In this document: positions 84 to 29,837 of the stretch, piece after piece
How positions within the stretch are numbered: position 1 is the stretch's first letter
How the letters are laid out: every line of letters begins with the position of its first letter
NCBI GenBank assembly: GCA_002685965.1
Contig: NYZE01000076.1
Coordinates: forward strand, 1 to 39,584
Source: Planctomycetota bacterium
Lineage (GTDB): Bacteria; Planctomycetota; UBA1135; GCA-002748355
Length of the DNA: 39,584 bases
Direction of reading: 5' to 3'
Made by a program: the position numbers and the translations under genes
The notes under the pieces: model-generated
Databases searched by the model: none
What the model was told of the DNA's origin: nothing
What the model saw: only the letters and a program-made list of their open reading frames with translations

Positions 84-2684
84 TCAGAGCCCGATGCGCG
101 ACTCGACACCGTTCGACAGCTCGCCGATGCCGAGCAAGGCGCCGCCGCTCTTGATGACGAAGCTCTGGCCGGTCAGGAGGAAGCCGACCAGGCTGCGGTC
201 GTTCGGGACTGGCAGGCTAGCGTTCCAGTCACCGGAGCCTCTGGTTGTTCCGGCGGGTAGCGCGAGGAGCCCGGTCAGTGCCGGTTGCAGCTTGCAGGCT
301 CCGAGCGAGACCGCAGCTGCCCTTCCCGCGTTGAGCAGGATGATGGTGGGTGCGCTCGCTGGCGCGGCGCGCGATGCCCACAGCCACGATTGGGCGATGA
401 CCGGCTCGCTCACGACGAGCTTGGGCGGGCCCTTGCCGCAGCCGGTGCCGACGCCGCGCGTGCCTGCCGTGTCGATCGTGTCGACGGTGTAGCCCCCACG
501 CCCGTGGGTGCCGACGACGAGTGTGTCGTCGTCCTTCCACAAGAGCTCCTCGACGGGCGAGGTGCGCATCGCCTTGAGCGAGCTCCGCCACCTGCGACCA
601 TCGTTGGTCGACCAGAGCAGGCCGAGGTCGGTCCCGACGAAGACGAGCCCGGGGATCTTGCGGTGCAGGGCGATCGAGGTGATCGGAGCGCTCGGCAACG
701 CAGTCGAGCCGCTACCAGTGATCTCCAGCCACGTCGTACCGCCGTCGAGAGTGCGCCAGAGGTTGTCGGAGTGGTAACCCATGAAGCCGACGTAGACACG
801 GTCGGCGTCGTGCTCGTCGATGGCGATGCGTCCGACCCAACGTGATGGCATCGCGGCGGTGTCGACGCGCTTCCATGTCGGCGACGCTGCTAGCGCGTTG
901 CGCGTCATCCAGACCTGGCCGTGGTTGTGGCCGACCCAGGCGACGTTGCTGTTGCTCTTGGCGACAGTGATCGCGCAGATGTTGCACGGAGGGTCGATCG
1001 CGAAGTGCGCGTTGCCGCCGTCAGCGAGTGGGCACGACAACGGACGCTTGACCTCGGTCCAGGTCGGTTGCGTCGGCGTTCGGACATCGTTGGTGCGCCA
1101 GAGGCTCGCACCTCCGAAATACATGCGCTTTGCATCGCTCGGATCGAGCACGAACGGCGGCATGAAGTTCGAGCCCTGGTCTCGAATGTTCGAGGAGGTG
1201 GCAATGGAGCTGAAGTTCGAGCCGCCGTTGCTGCTGCGATAGAGCCGAATCCAGTAGATCTCGGCATACATGTAGCGGGAGTCGGTCGGGTCGGCGGCGC
1301 AGTAGCCGCCGTCACCGCCGAGGACGCGGCGCCAGCCTTCCTTGTTGCCGGTGTAGAGCTGCGATCCGTTGTCCTGGCAACCGGCGACGACGTTGCCCGA
1401 CGGCGACATCGCCAGGCCGTAGAACTGGGTCAGACCGAGGTTGTTGTTGAGCTCCTGCCATGACGGGGTCGACGACGACCGGATGTTGGTCGAGCGGTAG
1501 ATGCCACCGTCGGTGCCATTGAACAGTGTCTGGTTCGTCGAACCGTTGTAGCCCGGGTGCTCGATCAGCGCGTGATGGTCGGCATGGGGACCGTTCATGC
1601 GCCCGTAGTTCAGGCCGCCGTTTGTGCTCCGGTACAGATAAACGCCACCCAGCACGAGCACGGATGGGTTGGTCGGGTCGACCCAGAGAATGTTGTTGTA
1701 ACGCGACCAGGTGTTGACGGTGGTCGTGCCCTGCCGGGAGTAGGTCTTGCCGCTATCGGTGGATCGGTAGGTGGCGATGCGGTTCGACTGGCTGACGGTT
1801 GCATACGTCGTCGTCGGGTTGCTGCGTGCGTAGGCAACTTCGACTCGCTGCTGGCTCGCTAGCCCCGTCGCGTTGCGCCAGGTCAGTCCGCTATCGGTGG
1901 AGTACATCGGATAGCCGTCGCGCGCGCCGGCTATCGCTTGCTTCGAATCGGTCGGGTGGAAGTCGATGTCCAGGACGGGGCCCGTGTGCCGTATCGACCA
2001 GGTCGTGCCGCCATCGGTGCTGCGGAAGATCCCGGTCCAGGTCGCGGCGAGTAGGACGTTGCTGTTGTTCGGGTCGACGACGAGTCGGTTCACGGCCTGG
2101 AAGTCCTTGTTCTCGGTGCTCTGCAGCACCGACCACGTCGTGCCCCCGTTGGTCGTGACGTGAATGCCGTTGCCGAGCGGTGCTGCCAGGTTGGACGAGC
2201 CAGTCGGGCTGTCGAAGAAGCCACCCTCGCCGGTGCCGGCCCAGAGCTTGTTCGCGTTCGTGGGATCGAGCACCAGGCACGAGGCTGCCATGAACGAACC
2301 GAAGCCGTCGAGCGGCGCCCACGACACACCGCCGTTGGTCGTCTTCCAGATGCCGCCCGACGCCGATCCGATCCACATCGTGTTCGTCTGCGTCGGGTGG
2401 ATGGCGATCGAGCGTATCCGGCCACCGACGTTGCCGGGGCCGATCCAGTTCCAGTTTGTCAGTACGTTCTTGGCGTTCGCCGGAGTCGCCGCGAGCAAGC
2501 GATCGCGTTGTGCGACCATGCGTCGGATCGCTCCATGGGGCGTGGTGCCGTCGGCATCCACGCGCTTCAGCCAACGAACGGTCGTGCCCTTGGGGTGTGT
2601 GGCTTCACTCTCCTCGACACCGGGGGTTGCGGTGTGGCAGGCAGGCAAGAGGCACAAGAGCAGCCAGGGGGCGAGTCGTGACAT
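84..2684 (-). CDS. Secreted lipoprotein with VPS10/sortilin-type BNR repeats and a C-terminal 'PVPND' domain
   Basis: Long ORF. The likely start is MSRLAPWLLLCLLPAC (signal peptide plus lipobox) at 2684, not the track start 2732. Repeated 'STDGGTTW/TTNGGVSW/RTLDGGTTW' BNR motifs. C-terminus LPVPNDRSLVGF...LSNGVESRIGL. Confidence 0.85.
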   Translation of the reverse strand: MSRLAPWLLLCLLPACHTATPGVEESEATHPKGTTVRWLKRVDADGTTPHGAIRRMVAQRDRLLAATPANAKNVLTNWNWIGPGNVGGRIRSIAIHPTQTNTMWIGSASGGIWKTTNGGVSWAPLDGFGSFMAASCLVLDPTNANKLWAGTGEGGFFDSPTGSSNLAAPLGNGIHVTTNGGTTWSVLQSTENKDFQAVNRLVVDPNNSNVLLAATWTGIFRSTDGGTTWSIRHTGPVLDIDFHPTDSKQAIAGARDGYPMYSTDSGLTWRNATGLASQQRVEVAYARSNPTTTYATVSQSNRIATYRSTDSGKTYSRQGTTTVNTWSRYNNILWVDPTNPSVLVLGGVYLYRSTNGGLNYGRMNGPHADHHALIEHPGYNGSTNQTLFNGTDGGIYRSTNIRSSSTPSWQELNNNLGLTQFYGLAMSPSGNVVAGCQDNGSQLYTGNKEGWRRVLGGDGGYCAADPTDSRYMYAEIYWIRLYRSSNGGSNFSSIATSSNIRDQGSNFMPPFVLDPSDAKRMYFGGASLWRTNDVRTPTQPTWTEVKRPLSCPLADGGNAHFAIDPPCNICAITVAKSNSNVAWVGHNHGQVWMTRNALAASPTWKRVDTAAMPSRWVGRIAIDEHDADRVYVGFMGYHSDNLWRTLDGGTTWLEITGSGSTALPSAPITSIALHRKIPGLVFVGTDLGLLWSTNDGRRWRSSLKAMRTSPVEELLWKDDDTLVVGTHGRGGYTVDTIDTAGTRGVGTGCGKGPPKLVVSEPVIAQSWLWASRAAPASAPTIILLNAGRAAAVSLGACKLQPALTGLLALPAGTTRGSGDWNASLPVPNDRSLVGFLLTGQSFVIKSGGALLGIGELSNGVESRIGL

Positions 2685-2781
2685 GGTTGCATTCTCCGAG
2701 CGGGTCCTACGACCACGATAGCAACTCAACACCGCGACGTGCGCATAGGCAGCCGTTGTGTCCCGAGTGCTTCCGGACGAG

Positions 2782-4515
2782 CTACTTCTTCTGTCCAGGA
2801 CGGATGACGTAGCTGTAGCTGCCGCCGCTCTCTTCGCCCAGGCGGCGGAGCTTCTTGGATAGGCCCCGCAGCAGTCTGCTCAGTTTGTAGCCGAAGCGGG
2901 CCTTGCGTCGGTCTGCGAACAGCGCGACGTGGATCGGGACAGGGCAGCTCGGTTGCGCAGAAAGCAGGACATCGACGAGCGTCTGCGGCGATTGGATGGT
3001 GCCGGCGGTGGGGGGTGACGTGCAGAGCCAATAGATGCTGTCGACGTCGGCGATGTTGGCCGTCTCGATCGGCTGCGCCGCGCGGATGTGTCGTAGCAGA
3101 GCCCCAGAGGGATTGCTCGGGCCGCGCGGGCGCTGTTCGCCTACGAGGTCCGCCAGGCGTTCTCGCGACTTGCTTGCCAGGGTCTTGCCGCGCTTGCTCC
3201 AGCACTCGACGAAGACTGTCGTCGTCGCGGGCAACTTGGCGAGGACGGTGCGTAGCTCCTCGGCGATGCGTTCGTGCACGGTCGTCTTTTCGGTGGTCGA
3301 ACCGTCCCTGTTGACGCCGGTGAATGGAGCCCCGGATGCCTCAGAACAGTCCACGATGATGCGGATCCGCTTGCCGAAGAGGGGCAGGCCGAAGAGGGTT
3401 GGCGTTCCTGCCGGGAACGGCGGCCGCGACGTCTCGCGTCCGCGGCGCAGCGCGTAGAGCCTGCGTCGTCCAGCGAGGAACTGCTTCCACTTTTCCGGTT
3501 CGTTTGCGCCGGCCGTGAAGCCGGTTCCGAGCTGGCCTCTCCTGTTGCGGCGACGCTCGGTTCCAGTGCCGTGCATGTCATTGAGCAGGCCCCAGATCCA
3601 CCAGCGGAGAGTTGCGTGCCCACCTGCTGTCTCCTGATGGGCGGCCAGGCAGTCGGGCAGCTCGCGCAGGATCTCGAGCGGTCGCGCGTTCCAGATGAAG
3701 CGGCACACGGCGACGCCCTCGACGAGCGGGCGTTGCAGGTCCTTCAGGGTCGCGACTGCATGCGCGATGATGCGGTCAACGTGTTCGTTGGGGTCGCGTT
3801 TGTCCGGGTCACCCAGCGCTGAGACGATGCCCCCGAGTGCGTGCCAAATCGCGCAGCGGACAGCAACCGACTTCTCGTTGTCGAGCAGCGGTACCAATCG
3901 CTTGAGGCTGAGTGACGCACCGATCGCTCTGATTGCCGCGAGGGCCGCGCCACGGACGCGAACTTCGTCCGATGCCAGTAGCTTCTCAACCGTCGCTCGA
4001 TGTTCGATGCCGCCACAGCGTGCGAGCACGGCGCAGGCGAAGTTGGCCGCGATTGGGTCGAAGTCCTCCTGTCCGAAACGGCCAAGCACGTCGACCGCGC
4101 GCGCGGCGTAGCGCGTACCGCTGCCCTTGGCGATCGTCGCGAGCACGGTGTGGCGCACGAGCCAGGGCTGGCGTTTGGCCGCGGCCCTGTTGCGAAGCTC
4201 GGCGACCGCGTCGTTGCCGATGCGGACGAGCCCGAGTTGCCACAACACGTCCGCGCCGTCATCGCCGACGGCTGCGGCGAGCCCCGAGCAGATGAACGAC
4301 AGCTCGGCTTCCGCGGTCCAGTGGAACTTGTCGCCGCGCGCCTTGACCAGTTCGACGATCTTCGCATTGCGCGGATCGAGGAAGCCAGGCCGATCGAGCG
4401 CTACCGGCGCTTGCAGGTTGACCTTGCCAGCGTTCCAGGCCTTCACGTAGCGGCGTCCGGTGTCGATCCAATCGACCTGCGGCAGAAGAACGGCGAGTAA
4501 GAAGGCCGCGAGCAT
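2782..4515 (-). CDS. HEAT-repeat protein with a degenerate VWA-like C-terminal domain
   Basis: Start MLAAFLLAVLLPQ at 4515 forms a TGATG overlap with the upstream M28 gene. HEAT-like helices (VRGAALAAIRAIGASLSLKRLVPLLDNEKSVAVRCAIWHALGG). C-terminal FGLPLFGKRIRIIVDCSEASG resembles FGIPVTGNRVLFIVDVSGSM of the 20754-22577 protein. Confidence 0.7.
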   Translation of the reverse strand: MLAAFLLAVLLPQVDWIDTGRRYVKAWNAGKVNLQAPVALDRPGFLDPRNAKIVELVKARGDKFHWTAEAELSFICSGLAAAVGDDGADVLWQLGLVRIGNDAVAELRNRAAAKRQPWLVRHTVLATIAKGSGTRYAARAVDVLGRFGQEDFDPIAANFACAVLARCGGIEHRATVEKLLASDEVRVRGAALAAIRAIGASLSLKRLVPLLDNEKSVAVRCAIWHALGGIVSALGDPDKRDPNEHVDRIIAHAVATLKDLQRPLVEGVAVCRFIWNARPLEILRELPDCLAAHQETAGGHATLRWWIWGLLNDMHGTGTERRRNRRGQLGTGFTAGANEPEKWKQFLAGRRRLYALRRGRETSRPPFPAGTPTLFGLPLFGKRIRIIVDCSEASGAPFTGVNRDGSTTEKTTVHERIAEELRTVLAKLPATTTVFVECWSKRGKTLASKSRERLADLVGEQRPRGPSNPSGALLRHIRAAQPIETANIADVDSIYWLCTSPPTAGTIQSPQTLVDVLLSAQPSCPVPIHVALFADRRKARFGYKLSRLLRGLSKKLRRLGEESGGSYSYVIRPGQKK

Positions 4516-5477
4516 CACCCCAGGAACCTGGCCTCGATCGCGGGCAGCGCTTGCCAAAGCACCCGTCCGACGATCGCCAGTGAGCGCCACGACACGATGT
4601 CCATCGTGTCCTTGTAGGTGTGCCACTCGTCGTTGTCTTCAAACTGGATCAGGTCGATCGACGGCAGCCCCGCGTTGAGGAATGGCACGTGGTCATCGTC
4701 GACGGACGTGTCCTTCTTGAAGAAGAACTTGCCGTATCCGAGCTTGGCGACCGCCGCTTCGATCGGCGGGAACAGGGCCTTCGTGGATGTTGCCTCGCGG
4801 TCGATCGCGAGCTTCTTGTGGCCGACCATGTCGAGCAGAACGAAGGCGCCGTAGTCGTGACCGCCCTTCGCTTTGCCAGGCAGGTGCTTCTTGACGAAGT
4901 GCTTGGAGCCGAACAGCGCGCGGTCGATGTTCCACTTGGCGGGCAGACTCTCTTCGCCGTCAAACCAGACGAACTCGAGCGTCGGCTTGTGCATCTTGAG
5001 GTGCACGAGGTCTTCGAGCATGGCAAGCATGAGCCCCGCGCCGGATCCGCCGTCGTTGGCACCCGTGAAAGCCTGCTCGTCTTCACCGGGCTCGTGGTCG
5101 AGTTCCACCTTGGTGTCGTAGTGCGTGCCGACCAGCAGGGTCTTGTCGCTACGACCCGGCAGCACGACGCGGATGTTCTCGAAGCGCAGCTTTTCCTTCT
5201 TGTCGTTCCAGGCCTCGCGGATCGGCTGGAGGCCGAGCGCCTTGATGTGCGCGCAGATGTAGTCCGCAGCGTTGGCGCGCGCCTGGCTTCCTGGTGTGCG
5301 CGGGCCGTATGCGACCAGCCGTGCAACGTGCTTGTAGGCACGCTTGCCGAGGTCCTTCTCGCCCGGCGGTTCGGCGATGGCTCGCGTGACCTGCTTTATT
5401 GGTTTGTCCTGACCGCCCCGCGGCACGACGCAGAATGCAAGCAGCGCGCAGGCGCAGTAGGCGGGCGGGCAGTTCAT
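4515..5477 (-). CDS. M28-family zinc peptidase / glutaminyl-cyclase-like
   Basis: Signal peptide; metal-ligand motifs THYDTK, GANDGGSG, WFDGEES, DDDHVPFLNAGLPSIDLIQFEDNDEWHTYKDT. Confidence 0.85.
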   Translation of the reverse strand: MNCPPAYCACALLAFCVVPRGGQDKPIKQVTRAIAEPPGEKDLGKRAYKHVARLVAYGPRTPGSQARANAADYICAHIKALGLQPIREAWNDKKEKLRFENIRVVLPGRSDKTLLVGTHYDTKVELDHEPGEDEQAFTGANDGGSGAGLMLAMLEDLVHLKMHKPTLEFVWFDGEESLPAKWNIDRALFGSKHFVKKHLPGKAKGGHDYGAFVLLDMVGHKKLAIDREATSTKALFPPIEAAVAKLGYGKFFFKKDTSVDDDHVPFLNAGLPSIDLIQFEDNDEWHTYKDTMDIVSWRSLAIVGRVLWQALPAIEARFLG

Positions 5478-6436
5478 TGCTTCTTGTAGAACTCAGCGGC
5501 GACGAGCGGCAGCGCCACGCTGACGACGTGCCCGACGATGGCGAGGCTTTCGGGGGAGATGAGGTCCATCGTGTCGTTGCCCGTATGCCACCAGGCGGTG
5601 ACGTCGCCGAACTGAATCAGGTCGATCGCCCTGACACCGTAGTTCAGGAACGGCACATGGTCGTCCGTCATGTGGTTCTTGTCTTGGAAGAACTTCGATC
5701 CGTAGGACAGTTGGTCTATCGCCTGCTGGAAGAGCTTGATCAGGACCTGGTTGGACGCGGTGTCCTGCGTGATCGCGAGGTCTTTGTGGCCGACCATGTC
5801 GAGCAGCACCATGCACGGCACGGCGTCCTTGAGGCTCCCGCCTTTGAAGCGCTTGACCAGTTGCTGGACACATCGCCTGGAACCGAACAGCGCCTTGTCG
5901 CTGTCCCATTCCCACGGGAGGCTCTCTTCGCCGTCGAACCAGGTCAGCAACAAGCGGCAGGGCAGCGGGTTGGCCTTGAAGTGCCGGGCCAACTCGATCA
6001 GCAGCCCAGAGCTCGAGCCGGCGTCGTTGGCGCCGACGAACAGCATCTCGGGGTTGGGGTTGCCGGGGACGTGGGTCCTCTTGGTGTCGTAGTGGCTGCC
6101 GAGGACCAGCAGGCGTTTCTCATCTGCGTTGGTGGCTGGGATCTCACACTCGATGTTGTGGAACTCGATCCCTGCGCCGTGCGGCTCGCTCTTGAACGAG
6201 TCGACCTTCGCGGTCAGGCCGAGTTTCTTCAGTTCGCCAAGGATGTAGTCACGGCAGGCTTTCAGTTCCATGGTTCCGGCTGGGCGTGGTCCGATGTCGA
6301 CCATGCCCTTGACCCAGGCGTAGGCACGGTTGCCGTCGATGGGGCTGGTCGGGCGGGCCTTGTCGCAGCCGTTCATCGGTAAGCAGAATGCTGCGATGGC
6401 GATCGCGGCAACGAGGAGGAGCATGACTCTCTTCAT
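5474..6436 (-). CDS. M28-family zinc peptidase / glutaminyl-cyclase-like (tandem paralogue)
   Basis: Start MKRVMLLLVAAIAIAAFCLPMNGC at 6436 (track start 6622 is too far upstream). Motifs SHYDTKR, GANDAGSSSG, WFDGEES, DDHVPFLNYGVRAIDLIQFGDVTAWWHTGNDT. ATGA overlap with the next gene. Confidence 0.85.
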   Translation of the reverse strand: MKRVMLLLVAAIAIAAFCLPMNGCDKARPTSPIDGNRAYAWVKGMVDIGPRPAGTMELKACRDYILGELKKLGLTAKVDSFKSEPHGAGIEFHNIECEIPATNADEKRLLVLGSHYDTKRTHVPGNPNPEMLFVGANDAGSSSGLLIELARHFKANPLPCRLLLTWFDGEESLPWEWDSDKALFGSRRCVQQLVKRFKGGSLKDAVPCMVLLDMVGHKDLAITQDTASNQVLIKLFQQAIDQLSYGSKFFQDKNHMTDDHVPFLNYGVRAIDLIQFGDVTAWWHTGNDTMDLISPESLAIVGHVVSVALPLVAAEFYKKQ

Positions 6437-9147: not shown

Positions 9148-10089
9148 TCAGTCTTGCCGTGCCTTCAGTTCCTTGAGGCGATTGTCGTACTTGCCGAAGG
9201 CGATCTTCTTGGACTCTTTGAGCGCCTGCTCCAGCGCCTTGGCATCACCGATCTTGTCGGCGTGCACCATGACCGCACGCCAGAAGGAACTCGCGTAGCG
9301 ACCGGTCGTGATGCGGTTCTGCTGCCACATCTCATAGAAGATCTGGCCGCGCTTCTTGGCTTTCCCACGATCGCGGATGATCGCGAGGATCTCCCAGCTG
9401 AGCATGTGCGAGTCGATGCGCTTCGCCTGCGCTTGGCTGCGAGGCGGCAGTGTCGCTAGGCGTTCCTGGGCGGCTTCGAGGTCGCTGATCTTCTGCAGAT
9501 CGAGATCAGCGATGAACAGGTCCACTTGCGCCGTCTTGTTGCCAGCCTTCGCCTTGTAGGCGAGCCTGTCATAGGTCTTCAGCGCGTCGGCCGTGTTGCT
9601 GAAGCTGGCGACCGAGCGCTGTGCCGGCTTCGCCAAGACTTCGCCCTCGGCATCGAGGAACGCGAGCGTCGGGAAGCCGCGGCCACCCTTCTCCCTCAAC
9701 AGGCGCGGGTACGGCTCGTCGTCACACCTCGACGTGTTGTGGAGGAATAGCACGGCCTTGCGTGCGAACTTCTTGAATCCCTTGTCGGAGAGTGCACCAC
9801 TCTCCAGTGCGTTGCAAGGGCCTCACGGCGCGTAGGAACGCGTGAAATACACGAAGAGCGGCACGTTGCGGCTCGCTGCCGACTTCCGTGCTTCGTCATA
9901 GTCGAACACCCAAGGGGCGGACTGGAAGACCTCTTTGGCCAGCTTCTCCGTGCGGAGCTTGGCGAGTTCCGCTTGGGACTTCTGAGGGCGTTGGGCGATG
10001 CTCCCCACGCGTTGCAAAGCGCGCTGTGCGAGCAGTTCCCCGGAGCCGCTGACAGCGATGCACAAAGCGGCGACAAAACGGATTCTCAT
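9148..10089 (-). CDS. Thioredoxin-fold selenoprotein candidate (UGPC active site); TGA at 9823-9825 read as Sec
   Basis: ORFs 9823-10089 and 9148-9753 are in the same frame and are separated by TGA at the first active-site Cys position: [43 protein letters not shown]...[15 protein letters not shown] (cis-Pro motif downstream). RBS AGGAG before ATG at 10089. Confidence 0.8.
9779..9820 (-). promoter_or_regulatory. Candidate bacterial SECIS element
   Basis: Immediately after TGA (minus strand): GG-CCCTTG-caacgcact-GGAGAGTG-GTG-CACTCTCC-ga-CAAGGG. Perfect 8-bp apical stem inside a perfect 6-bp lower stem; apical loop starts 26 nt after the UGA and begins with G. Confidence 0.75.
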
Positions 10090-10315
10090 GAGTTCTCCTG
10101 ATCGTGGACGTCGACAGGATAGCGCCTCGGTGGCCGGGGCGTGTCAGCTCCACGTTGCCCATTCTCGGCCTTGCCTGAAAGCTACCCCGCTGCTGTGGTT
10201 ACAAGCAGGCGCCGGCGACGCTAGAAGCCATCAAGTCGGCTGCGGTGGATCGTCGAAGAACACGACACAGCCAGTGGCAATCGAACCTGGCCGACTCATC
10301 CCCCGAGTTCTACTC

Positions 10316-26545: not shown

Positions 26546-26776
26546 CGAACTCCTCAGCCGAAGGACTCGACCGCGGTGGTGGGTGGATGGTCCCCGGCAA
26601 GTCGTCGCGGCCCTCGCGGGTCGCTTGCTTCGGGGCCAGTCGGCCATCGAAAACCCCTATGCTGATTGGTAGAATCTGACTGCTGGAACATCGGCCAGGC
26701 CCAACCGCCCCATGCGTGCGGATTGCGCCAGCTGTAAGAACCCGGCCCGGTGACACCGATGGACTTCCACGACCCG

Positions 26777-28354
26777 ATGCATCACTTCCGAAGAGCCCTG
26801 TTTCTGGTGTGCCTGATAGCCCTGGCCGCTTGCAGCGGTGATTGGTTCGTGACGAGCATCTTCGGCTCTGGTGGCGGCTCGCCGGTTGTCCCGCCGACGC
26901 CGAATGCCTTCAACGAAGTGACCACGGCGGCGGGGCTGAGATACCCTCCTCCCCAGCTGACGATCATGCCGATCGGGGCGGGCGCCGCCTGCGGCGACTA
27001 CGACGGCGACGGCTGGATCGACATCTTGGTGTTGCGCGGCCGCAACCTGCCGACGCTCTTGTTCCGTAACCGCGGCAACGGCACCTTCGAAGAAGTCGGT
27101 GCGAAGGCTGGCCTCGATATCACAGGCAACACGTGCGGGCCCTGCTTCGCGGACATCGACGGCGACGGCCATCTCGACCTTGTAGTCGGCGGTGTCGTCG
27201 ACACGCCATTCAGGATGTACCTGAACCTCGGAAACGGCACGTTCAAGGACATCACGGCGCAGTCCAAGATCGTTCTCAGCGGCCTCAGTTGCGGGTCTGC
27301 CTTCGGTGACTACGACCTGGACGGCGATCTTGACCTCTTCATCACCCGTTGGGAGCGCCAGCACCCGACGCGCAAGGCCGACGAATACCTCTGGCGCAAC
27401 AACGGCGATCTGACCTTCACCGACGTTAGCGTCGAGAGCCAGATCTCGAAGACGGTCCGTGTCAACGTCCTCCAGGGTGACGTGACCTTCACGCCTAATT
27501 TCGCCGACGTGAACAACGACGGCTGGCCCGACCTGCTCCTCGTCGCCGACTTCGTGTCGAGTCGCATCTACATCAACAAGAAGGACGGGACCTTCGAGGA
27601 CACGACGACTCCGAACATCAACGATGACAACGGCATGGGCGGCGCGGTTGCCGACTACGACAACGACGGCGACCTCGATTGGTTCGTGACGAGCATCTTC
27701 GATGATGATCCGAAGAAGTGGACCGGCAACCGCATGTATCGCAACAAGGGCGATGGCACTTTCGAGGATGTGACGACCCAAGCCGGTGTGCGCGAGGGTG
27801 GTTGGGGTTGGGCCTGCAGCTTCTCTGACTTCAACCAAGACGGCTACCTGGACATCGCGCATGTCAACGGCTGGCACGCTGACGTCCTGCCATTCGTGTT
27901 GGACCCATCGCGATTGTACATGTCGAACGGGGACGGCACGTTCACCGAGTCGGCCGAGCAGTTCGGGTTCCTCGACCAGGGCCAGGGCCGCGGCATGATG
28001 TGCTTGGACTACGACAACGACGGCGACCTGGACATCTTCGTCGAGAACCTCGATCAACCGTGGCGGCTGTTCCGTAACGACCTCGAAAAGGGCAACTACT
28101 TGATCGTGACGCTGCGCGCTCCGTCACCCAATACCGCGGCGGTCGGCGCACGCGTCCACATCAGTACTGGCGGCAAGAACCAGATGCGCGAGATCCACTG
28201 CGGCAGCAACTACATCTCGCAAGATCCGTCGAATGCACACTTTGGCCTCGGCACGGCAACGGTGATCGACTCCCTGACGGTGATCTGGCCGGACAGGACC
28301 GTCACGGTGAAGACCAACGTGGCCGTGAATCAACGGCTCGTGATCACCAAGTGA
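26777..28354 (+). CDS. FG-GAP/VCBS-repeat lipoprotein with ASPIC/UnbV-like C-terminal domain
   Basis: MHHFRRALFLVCLIALAACSG lipobox; DYDGDGWIDILV, DIDGDGHLDLVV and similar repeats; NYLIVTLRAPSPNTAAVGARVHISTGGKNQMREI C-terminal domain. Start may be 26759. Confidence 0.9.
   Translation: MHHFRRALFLVCLIALAACSGDWFVTSIFGSGGGSPVVPPTPNAFNEVTTAAGLRYPPPQLTIMPIGAGAACGDYDGDGWIDILVLRGRNLPTLLFRNRGNGTFEEVGAKAGLDITGNTCGPCFADIDGDGHLDLVVGGVVDTPFRMYLNLGNGTFKDITAQSKIVLSGLSCGSAFGDYDLDGDLDLFITRWERQHPTRKADEYLWRNNGDLTFTDVSVESQISKTVRVNVLQGDVTFTPNFADVNNDGWPDLLLVADFVSSRIYINKKDGTFEDTTTPNINDDNGMGGAVADYDNDGDLDWFVTSIFDDDPKKWTGNRMYRNKGDGTFEDVTTQAGVREGGWGWACSFSDFNQDGYLDIAHVNGWHADVLPFVLDPSRLYMSNGDGTFTESAEQFGFLDQGQGRGMMCLDYDNDGDLDIFVENLDQPWRLFRNDLEKGNYLIVTLRAPSPNTAAVGARVHISTGGKNQMREIHCGSNYISQDPSNAHFGLGTATVIDSLTVIWPDRTVTVKTNVAVNQRLVITK
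26840..26864 (+). repeat. 25-nt direct repeat copy 1
   Basis: gattggttcgtgacgagcatcttcg, identical to 27677-27701. Confidence 0.9.
27677..27701 (+). repeat. 25-nt direct repeat copy 2
   Basis: gattggttcgtgacgagcatcttcg, identical to 26840-26864. Confidence 0.9.
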
Positions 28355-28493
28355 CGGGCGCGGGCTTCCGCACCGGGCGGCGACGGGCACCCTAGCATCG
28401 CTTCTACCTCTGGAAGCTCGTGCAAGCAGGCCCCACTTCCCTGCGCGCCGCGCTAGAATGCCGCGCGAGACCATTCCTGACGGGAGTTTCTAC

Positions 28494-29837
28494 ATGAGAG
28501 TCGCAACGTTGCAGTCGCTCACTCTGGCGTTGGCCGGGTGCGTGGTTCTATTTAGCCCAAGAGGCGTCGCGCAAACGGACGTGGAGACGACCATTCGCTT
28601 TGCGCCACCGAAGCGGATCATGGCCGGTGATGTCTTTCTCGGTGAGAACCGACTCTATCCGTCGCCCGCCATGCACGATGTAAATGGCGACGGCCGGGCC
28701 GATATCGTGATTGGCGACCTGTTCGGCAAGGTGACGGTTGCCCCTCACACGGGCAAGCCGATGTCGTACGGGGCGGAGGAAGAGGTCAAGGACCGCGAAG
28801 GGGAGCAGCTCAAGTTCCACAACTGGTGATGCATCGGCATGGGTTCACAGTTTGTGGACTTCAATGCTGATGGCCACGTGGACTACCTGTCCGCGACCTT
28901 CGACGGCTCGCCGCACATCAGCTACGGCAGCAAGGGAGGCTTCAACGAACCGGTGCGCCTGAAGGATGCCCAGGGGCAACGGATCCTCATCTCGTCCTAC
29001 TGGGACTATGACGAGCGCGCGCACCTGAAGACCGACCGTGCGCTCAGCAAAGGCAATGCGCCAGCTGAGCGGTGCATCTCGGCGTTGGCCTTCGACTGGG
29101 ATGGTGACGGCGACAACGACTTGCTCCTCGGCAGCTACGAGAAGGGGCATCTCTACCGCCAGATGAACGAGGGCACGAACAAGGAGCCGAAGTTCACAGG
29201 CAAGAACCTCGCCGTGATGGCGGGCAAGCAGCCGTTCGCGCTGCCTGCCAAGATGACCACGCCCCGTCTTGTGGATTGGGACGGCGACGGCGACATGGAC
29301 CTCGTGGCTGGCAGCTTCGGTGACTCTTTTGGCCAGAGCAGCGTTGGCGGCGGCGTCTACCTCTCGCGCAACAACGGCGCGAAGGGCAAGCCGGCCTTTG
29401 GCAAGCTCGAGACGTTGATCGCGCCAAGCGCCAAGGGGATGACGGCGCCGACGCGTCCGGACGCGGGCCTGTATCCCGAGGTCGTCGACTACGACGGCGA
29501 TGGCGATCTCGATCTGGTGGTCGGCGGTTACTCCTTGTGGACGCCGAAGGGCCGCGAGCTCAACGCTAAGGAGAAGGCAAAGGTCACCGCGCTCAGGGCG
29601 CAACTGGCGGCGCTCACCGGTCGGCGTTCGAAGTTGTTGCGCAAGATCTCCGCGGAGGTCACCGAGGCAACGGTCGGCCTCGATCCCAAGAGCAAGGAGT
29701 GGCGGGCCAAGGTGAAGCCTATCCGGGCGAAGTACCGCCCGGTCGAGGAAGAAAGACTAGCCGTGTCGAAGCAGCTCAAGGCCTTGGTGCCCGGGCCGCA
29801 GCGCCGGTCCTTCGTCTGGTTGTACGAGCGGTTGTAG
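28494..29837 (+). CDS. FG-GAP/VCBS-repeat selenoprotein candidate; TGA at 28827-28829 read as Sec (W-U-C motif)
   Basis: ORFs 28458-28829 and 28839-29837 are in the same frame: ...EGEQLKFHNW-U-CIGMGSQFVDFNADGHVDYLSATFDGSPHISYGSKGGF... FG-GAP coding continues without a gap. RBS GGGAG before ATG 28494; signal peptide. Confidence 0.8.
28832..28872 (+). promoter_or_regulatory. Candidate bacterial SECIS element
   Basis: CATCGGCAT-gg-GTTCAC-agttt-GTGGAC-ttca-ATGCTGATG: 9-bp lower helix (one G-U), 6-bp upper helix (one G-U), 5-nt loop AGUUU starting 20 nt after the UGA with G at loop position 2. Confidence 0.7.

Follow-up and report, generated by a model that had tools for sequence, protein, structure and literature searches.

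A selenocysteine-cysteine motif in an apparently undescribed family of predicted secreted FG-GAP propeller proteins, mainly from Planctomycetota

Most of the characterised selenoproteins have thioredoxin-like folds (PMC13188914), and published search pipelines demand at least two cysteine homologues of a candidate family (PMC1088965; deep-Sep, PMC12013277). In the Caulobacter envelope, electrons pass from ScsB to TlpA and on to a peroxiredoxin (PMC5403849). The 119-family inventory of prokaryotic selenoproteins (PMC13188914, May 2026) contains no FG-GAP or propeller family, and deep-Sep (PMC12013277) reports no FG-GAP selenoprotein family. Within the literature outside subscription journals, no paper was found that links FG-GAP to selenocysteine or selenoproteins; a single paper mentions VCBS, and it is unrelated. 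Candidate selenoproteins of planctomycetes are tabulated in PMC4807772 (table S9). NCBIfam (June 2026) contains no family that matches the protein described below, and 44 members of its family gave generic or weak matches only. The widespread FG-GAP family with a selenocysteine-cysteine (Sec-Cys) pair is apparently undescribed, as the preliminary description of this DNA had suspected.

The gene lies in a 39,584-nt stretch of a Planctomycetota genome (contig NYZE01000076.1, assembly GCA_002685965.1), which as a whole is called the window here, and judging from its sequence and that of its relatives it almost certainly encodes a selenoprotein (Table 1). The open reading frames 28458-28829 and 28839-29837 belong to one frame, joined by a TGA with TGC directly behind it, exactly as first described; reading this TGA as a residue gives a single protein of 459 amino acids (counted from ATG 28458), which crosses the site as KFHNW-U-CIGMGSQFVDFNADGHVDYL and continues to the terminal stop TAG 29835-29837 with no further in-frame stop between the two. 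The FG-GAP repeats were said to run on both sides without another lesion; the read-through protein holds a single in-frame TGA, and in Pfam it matched PF13517 with 82 bits against a curated cut-off of 26.9 and nothing else. The likely start is ATG 28494 in preference to ATG 28458, because the former has a GGGAG motif upstream and a signal-peptide-like N-terminus downstream. This N-terminus is likely a signal peptide that directs secretion, and a lipoprotein (LAGC) is a possible alternative; the homologues open with similar hydrophobic N-termini, and residues 1-42 of the structure model have low pLDDT.

Table 1. Features of the predicted selenoprotein gene, in window coordinates
Feature	Position	Strand	Basis and remarks
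Putative Shine-Dalgarno GGGAG	28482..28486	+	Sequence reading; 7 nt 5' of ATG 28494
Predicted FG-GAP beta-propeller selenoprotein gene (Sec-Cys)	28494..29837	+	Pfam PF13517, frame analysis; alternative opening ATG 28458
Putative signal peptide MRVATLQSLTLALAGCVVLFSPRGVAQ	28494..28574	+	Sequence reading
Predicted FG-GAP propeller blades, residues about 45-361	28590..29540	+	PF13517, AF2 model, Foldseek
TGA as predicted selenocysteine, U124 counted from ATG 28458	28827..28829	+	TGH pattern scan; C/U alignment column 124
Cys codon TGC, C125, directly 3' of Sec	28830..28832	+	Invariant in family
Lower helix 28832-28840/28864-28872	28832..28872	+	Strong in window, poorly conserved in relatives
Conserved apical SECIS-type hairpin	28843..28859	+	Stem 28843-28848/28854-28859, loop AGUUU 28849-28853
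Predicted helical insertion, residues 370-443	29565..29786	+	AF2 model
C-terminal closing strand FVWLYER, conserved	29799..29825	+	Alignment (W454 nearly invariant); model strand 448-456

TGA is a working stop codon in the source genome, since it terminates nine of the 16 main open reading frames of the window, and the same fact could be held to favor a real stop at 28827-28829, left by a pseudogene or a sequencing error or serving a regulated short product. The relatives argue against this. In 60 related genomes, the top matches to the read-through protein all carry one TGA. Further homologues came from 84,980 species genomes, and more than 100 distinct genes from independent genomes keep the TGA at the same column, always with Cys next, and continue in the same frame through the same downstream domain to the same C-terminus. 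They belong to environmental bacteria, mainly Planctomycetota but also Lentisphaerota and Armatimonadota; one of them lies on the complete chromosome of the isolate Pla86 (L054). In several genomes the family has between two and four paralogues, in part arranged in tandem (L054/L229 in Pla86, L200 in G412, and L055); the two copies at L054 of Pla86 form such a tandem.

To avoid a bias toward TGA, we scanned 392 Planctomycetota genomes with a TGH pattern that accepts TGA, TGC or TGT at the site, and obtained 93 matches, which come from 75 genomes and have TGA in 92 cases and TGT in one; the reversed control pattern gave zero matches in the same 392 genomes. A profile search that is independent of the site codon (294 genomes, E <= 1e-40) returned 106 rows, of which 100 had the TGA, three were full-length without a stop, and three were partial and did not span the site. 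For the rows taken as loci, sequence inspection confirmed the TGA position; the tree contains 107 such Sec rows. The distant, long-branch member L080 was kept apart. All three full-length stop-free rows have Cys at the site, reading GCCIGFTPQMAD in G238 (L143) and YCCVGAQPRFVD in G284 (L241) and G232 (L242). The Cys/Sec interchange proposed for this column thus does occur, with Sec members exceeding Cys members by about 30 to 1. The genomes G284 and G232 each consist of a single contig, are 99-100% complete, and are absent from the SelB-positive set. In a quick tree the Cys forms branch from within Sec clades in two separate positions (G238 with G343, support 91; G284/G232 with G076, support 98), and therefore Cys replaced Sec at least twice.

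Downstream of the TGA, the preliminary description had drawn a two-helix hairpin. Such a hairpin exists in the window (MFE -21.9 kcal/mol, z = -2.66, equalled by 2 of 200 shuffled sequences), its loop starts 20 nt past the UGA, and G is at loop position 2. Across 49 relatives, 96.6% of the cells are paired in the apical stem and 69% in the 9-bp lower helix, so that only the apical stem and its loop stood as a conserved element and the lower helix was rejected as one. Of 104 distinct Sec sequences, 98 form all five inner apical pairs and 99 have AGUUN or AGGUN as the loop. The stem also covaries: column pair 21-29 is A-U in 78 of the 104 Sec sequences, G-C in 16, G-U in 7 and C-U in 3, with A-C in none; pair 20-30 changes from C-G to U-A in one member; and where the 3' Val codon GTG became Ala GCG, the 5' Pro codon CCA became CCG.

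The codons that build the hairpin (counts uncorrected for relatedness) are TCA in 14/14 Ser, CCA in 64/89 Pro and GTG in 88/88 Val, together with GGT in 42/43, ACT in 25/27 and AGT in 20/20 (likewise uncorrected), while elsewhere in the same genes these six codons account for 7%, 8%, 36%, 13%, 9% and 6%, respectively. Judged by codon usage, the hairpin forces codons that the family genes otherwise avoid, which is RNA-level selection. The three Cys homologues have all lost the intact apical hairpin: at pair 20-30 a C faces another C. An Rfam scan of the window found no SECIS match and only a tRNA-Leu. If the TGA were a real stop, one would not expect a covarying stem, rare codons forced by the hairpin, or Cys substitutions that go together with its loss, and we consider that explanation very improbable.

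The source genome has the machinery for selenocysteine, a check that the preliminary description had asked for: SelB scored 331.6 bits against a cut-off of 242, and SelA, SelD and a tRNA-Sec(UCA) with anticodon TCA are present. The selD gene has an in-frame TGA of its own and adjoins selA (G000:C2:6586-8915). Because 59 of 61 genomes within the order have SelB, a comparison there is uninformative, and co-occurrence was assessed at the phylum level, where SelB exceeded the cut-off in 68 of 75 motif genomes versus 167 of 317 motif-free ones (phylum sample, uncorrected for relatedness). The seven motif genomes without SelB are 64-89% complete, and among good genomes SelB was found in 42/42 with the motif versus 84/175 without it (again uncorrected for relatedness). 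A Trp often stands just before the site (NW-TGA), which might suggest that TGA is read as tryptophan, or as some other standard residue, through an alternative code or leaky read-through. However, many other genes end in TGA, each family gene has a single in-frame TGA, always at the one column, the residue that replaces it is Cys, and dedicated Sec machinery is present, so this reading is scarcely credible. From its conservation we infer that the UGA at 28827-28829 is almost certainly decoded as Sec, by SelB and tRNA-Sec(UCA) with the help of the hairpin that follows it; support for the insertion of Sec is as strong as sequence evidence allows.

AlphaFold2, run with 44 homologues, gave a model with pLDDT 90.6 and pTM 0.86, in which propeller strands are followed by inserted helices (370-443) and by a C-terminal strand (448-456) that closes the fold. 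The strand list of the model would correspond to about five blades. The best solved matches in Foldseek are CRTAC1 and the integrin alpha propellers, and because the TM-scores are low (0.34), this similarity indicates a fold type and not close kinship. Sequence profiles agree with the fold search, CRTAC1 being the best solved match by both. The protein is very probably a secreted propeller. The gene directly upstream, 26750-28354 (+), encodes a CRTAC1-type FG-GAP protein with a UnbV_ASPIC domain and without the U-C motif.

In the model, Sec124 and Cys125 occupy a loop before strand 131-133, at the entry to the second blade, where local quality is lower (block 121-130, pLDDT 79); from this position the pair may be placed on the functional face near the channel. 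The aligned members have the motif [WGY]-U-C-[ITV]-x-x-x-x-[QH]-x-[VA]-D-x-[ND]-x-D-G. Sec column 124 and the following Cys column are invariant among 44 aligned members; beyond these two columns, invariance is limited to Asp, Gly and Pro positions in the FG-GAP repeats.

A minority of the family members have redox domains fused or adjacent to them. Locus L158 (genome G067), 1985-4624 (+), carries a TlpA/redoxin domain with WUGPC, N-terminal to the UC propeller, in one secreted protein read in one frame with two Sec codons. A DsbD_N domain is fused after the propeller in L163, L180, L192 and L194 (genomes G236, G076, G341 and G030); all four score above the Pfam cut-off, and they fall in three parts of the tree. 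One of them (L194:2184-4412, minus strand, in G030) has two Sec codons in a single frame that runs from the FG-GAP(UC) part through DsbD_N into a bcp-type peroxiredoxin (TPGUT). The Cys-form gene of G284 and G232 overlaps by a few bases a following DsbD_N-like gene, whose assignment is weak (PF11412 with E 1e-4, below the cut-off, in L242; no Pfam match in L241) and whose domain aligns with the DsbD_N domain of G076. A thioredoxin-like UNPC gene lies upstream of the Lentisphaerales member (L053) and overlaps its start, and a TlpA-like UGPC gene lies directly downstream of the member in G011 (L013). The same queries found no redox-domain match in 56 control FG-GAP loci. Most members, including that of the window, have no adjoining redox gene, and an all-against-all neighbor comparison found no conserved gene neighborhood beyond close relatives. 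Weak TcdB_midN Pfam matches in two fusions were taken as FG-GAP cross-matches and not as toxins.

The window itself contains a second selenoprotein gene, 9148-10143 (-), with TGA at 9823-9825, which encodes a secreted thioredoxin_7-like protein with UGPC (PF13899). The hairpin after this TGA has -20 kcal/mol and z -2.25, and among the partner thioredoxin-like genes a post-UGA hairpin is clear only in this one. Its homologue at L053 overlaps the FG-GAP selenoprotein gene there. At the distant locus L080, a UC FG-GAP protein (2476-4035, +) also carries domains of the DUF1573-like and secretion-tail kinds; 2-3 kb downstream lies a frame (5320-6396, +) that is redoxin-like and contains UTIC.

According to these fusions to DsbD_N, TlpA-like and peroxiredoxin domains, Sec124-Cys125 is probably a vicinal redox pair, one of the two roles that the preliminary description had put forward. 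A different function would be a site for a soft metal such as Cu or Hg, with the secreted propeller serving in binding or sensing. Vicinal CU motifs do occur in the metal or organometal selenoproteins SaoL, HgcA and MbdU (inventory PMC13188914), and FG-GAP propellers are often binding scaffolds; however, the family alignment has no further invariant Cys, His or Met besides the pair, and the fusion partners are thiol-redox domains and not metal transporters, which makes a metal site unlikely. As a redox pair, Sec124 and Cys125 would most likely alternate between the selenol-thiol state and the selenenylsulfide. The electrons would probably come from the envelope reducing pathway, through either a TlpA-like thioredoxin or an N-terminal domain of the DsbD type, since relatives carry just these domains as fusions or in translationally coupled genes, and one of them runs on into a peroxiredoxin. 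The protein would act as a reductase or electron relay for an oxidised target outside the cytoplasm.

Envelope reducing chemistry is the most likely setting of the family, because of the DsbD_N, TlpA and peroxiredoxin fusions and neighbors and the Caulobacter ScsB-TlpA-peroxiredoxin precedent. The link to the DsbD/TlpA pathway in particular, seen in the gene arrangement of a minority of members, is somewhat favored, and we have good confidence in the reading as a whole, namely a Sec-Cys redox center in a secreted propeller that is fed by an envelope thiol-reducing pathway. Only tentatively might the family be a class of beta-propeller redox enzymes, found throughout Planctomycetota, whose Sec-Cys selenenylsulfide is the terminal reductase of the DsbD_N/TlpA envelope pathway and which nearly always use Sec, the Cys form being much less fit.

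The family would add a widespread selenoprotein on a fold that is not listed among selenoproteins, it gives a coherent reading to a large, formerly fragmented set of planctomycete genes, and its fusions connect selenium with envelope redox chemistry in a testable way.

With known bacterial selenoproteins (PMC13188914) the family has in common the in-frame UGA, the downstream hairpin whose small apical loop contains a G, a Cys beside or close to the Sec, the existence of Cys homologues, and the Sec machinery; the hairpin position and the G-bearing small apical loop also match the bacterial features given in PMC1088965. It differs from them in that the Sec forms greatly outnumber the Cys forms, and at this ratio pipelines that demand Cys homologues would tend to miss it. 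The FG-GAP repeats with Dx[DN]xDG loops (PF13517) are common to CRTAC1-ASPIC and integrin alpha, whereas the present protein lacks the UnbV_ASPIC domain of the CRTAC1/ASPIC-UnbV family (no PF07593 match) and has an extra helical arm and the invariant U-C. Compared with the DsbD/ScsB-TlpA-PprX pathway (PMC5403849), family members are linked by fusion or adjacency to the same domain types (DsbD_N, TlpA-like and peroxiredoxin), a Sec-Cys propeller is not among the known parts of that pathway, and several of the partner domains here are themselves selenoproteins.
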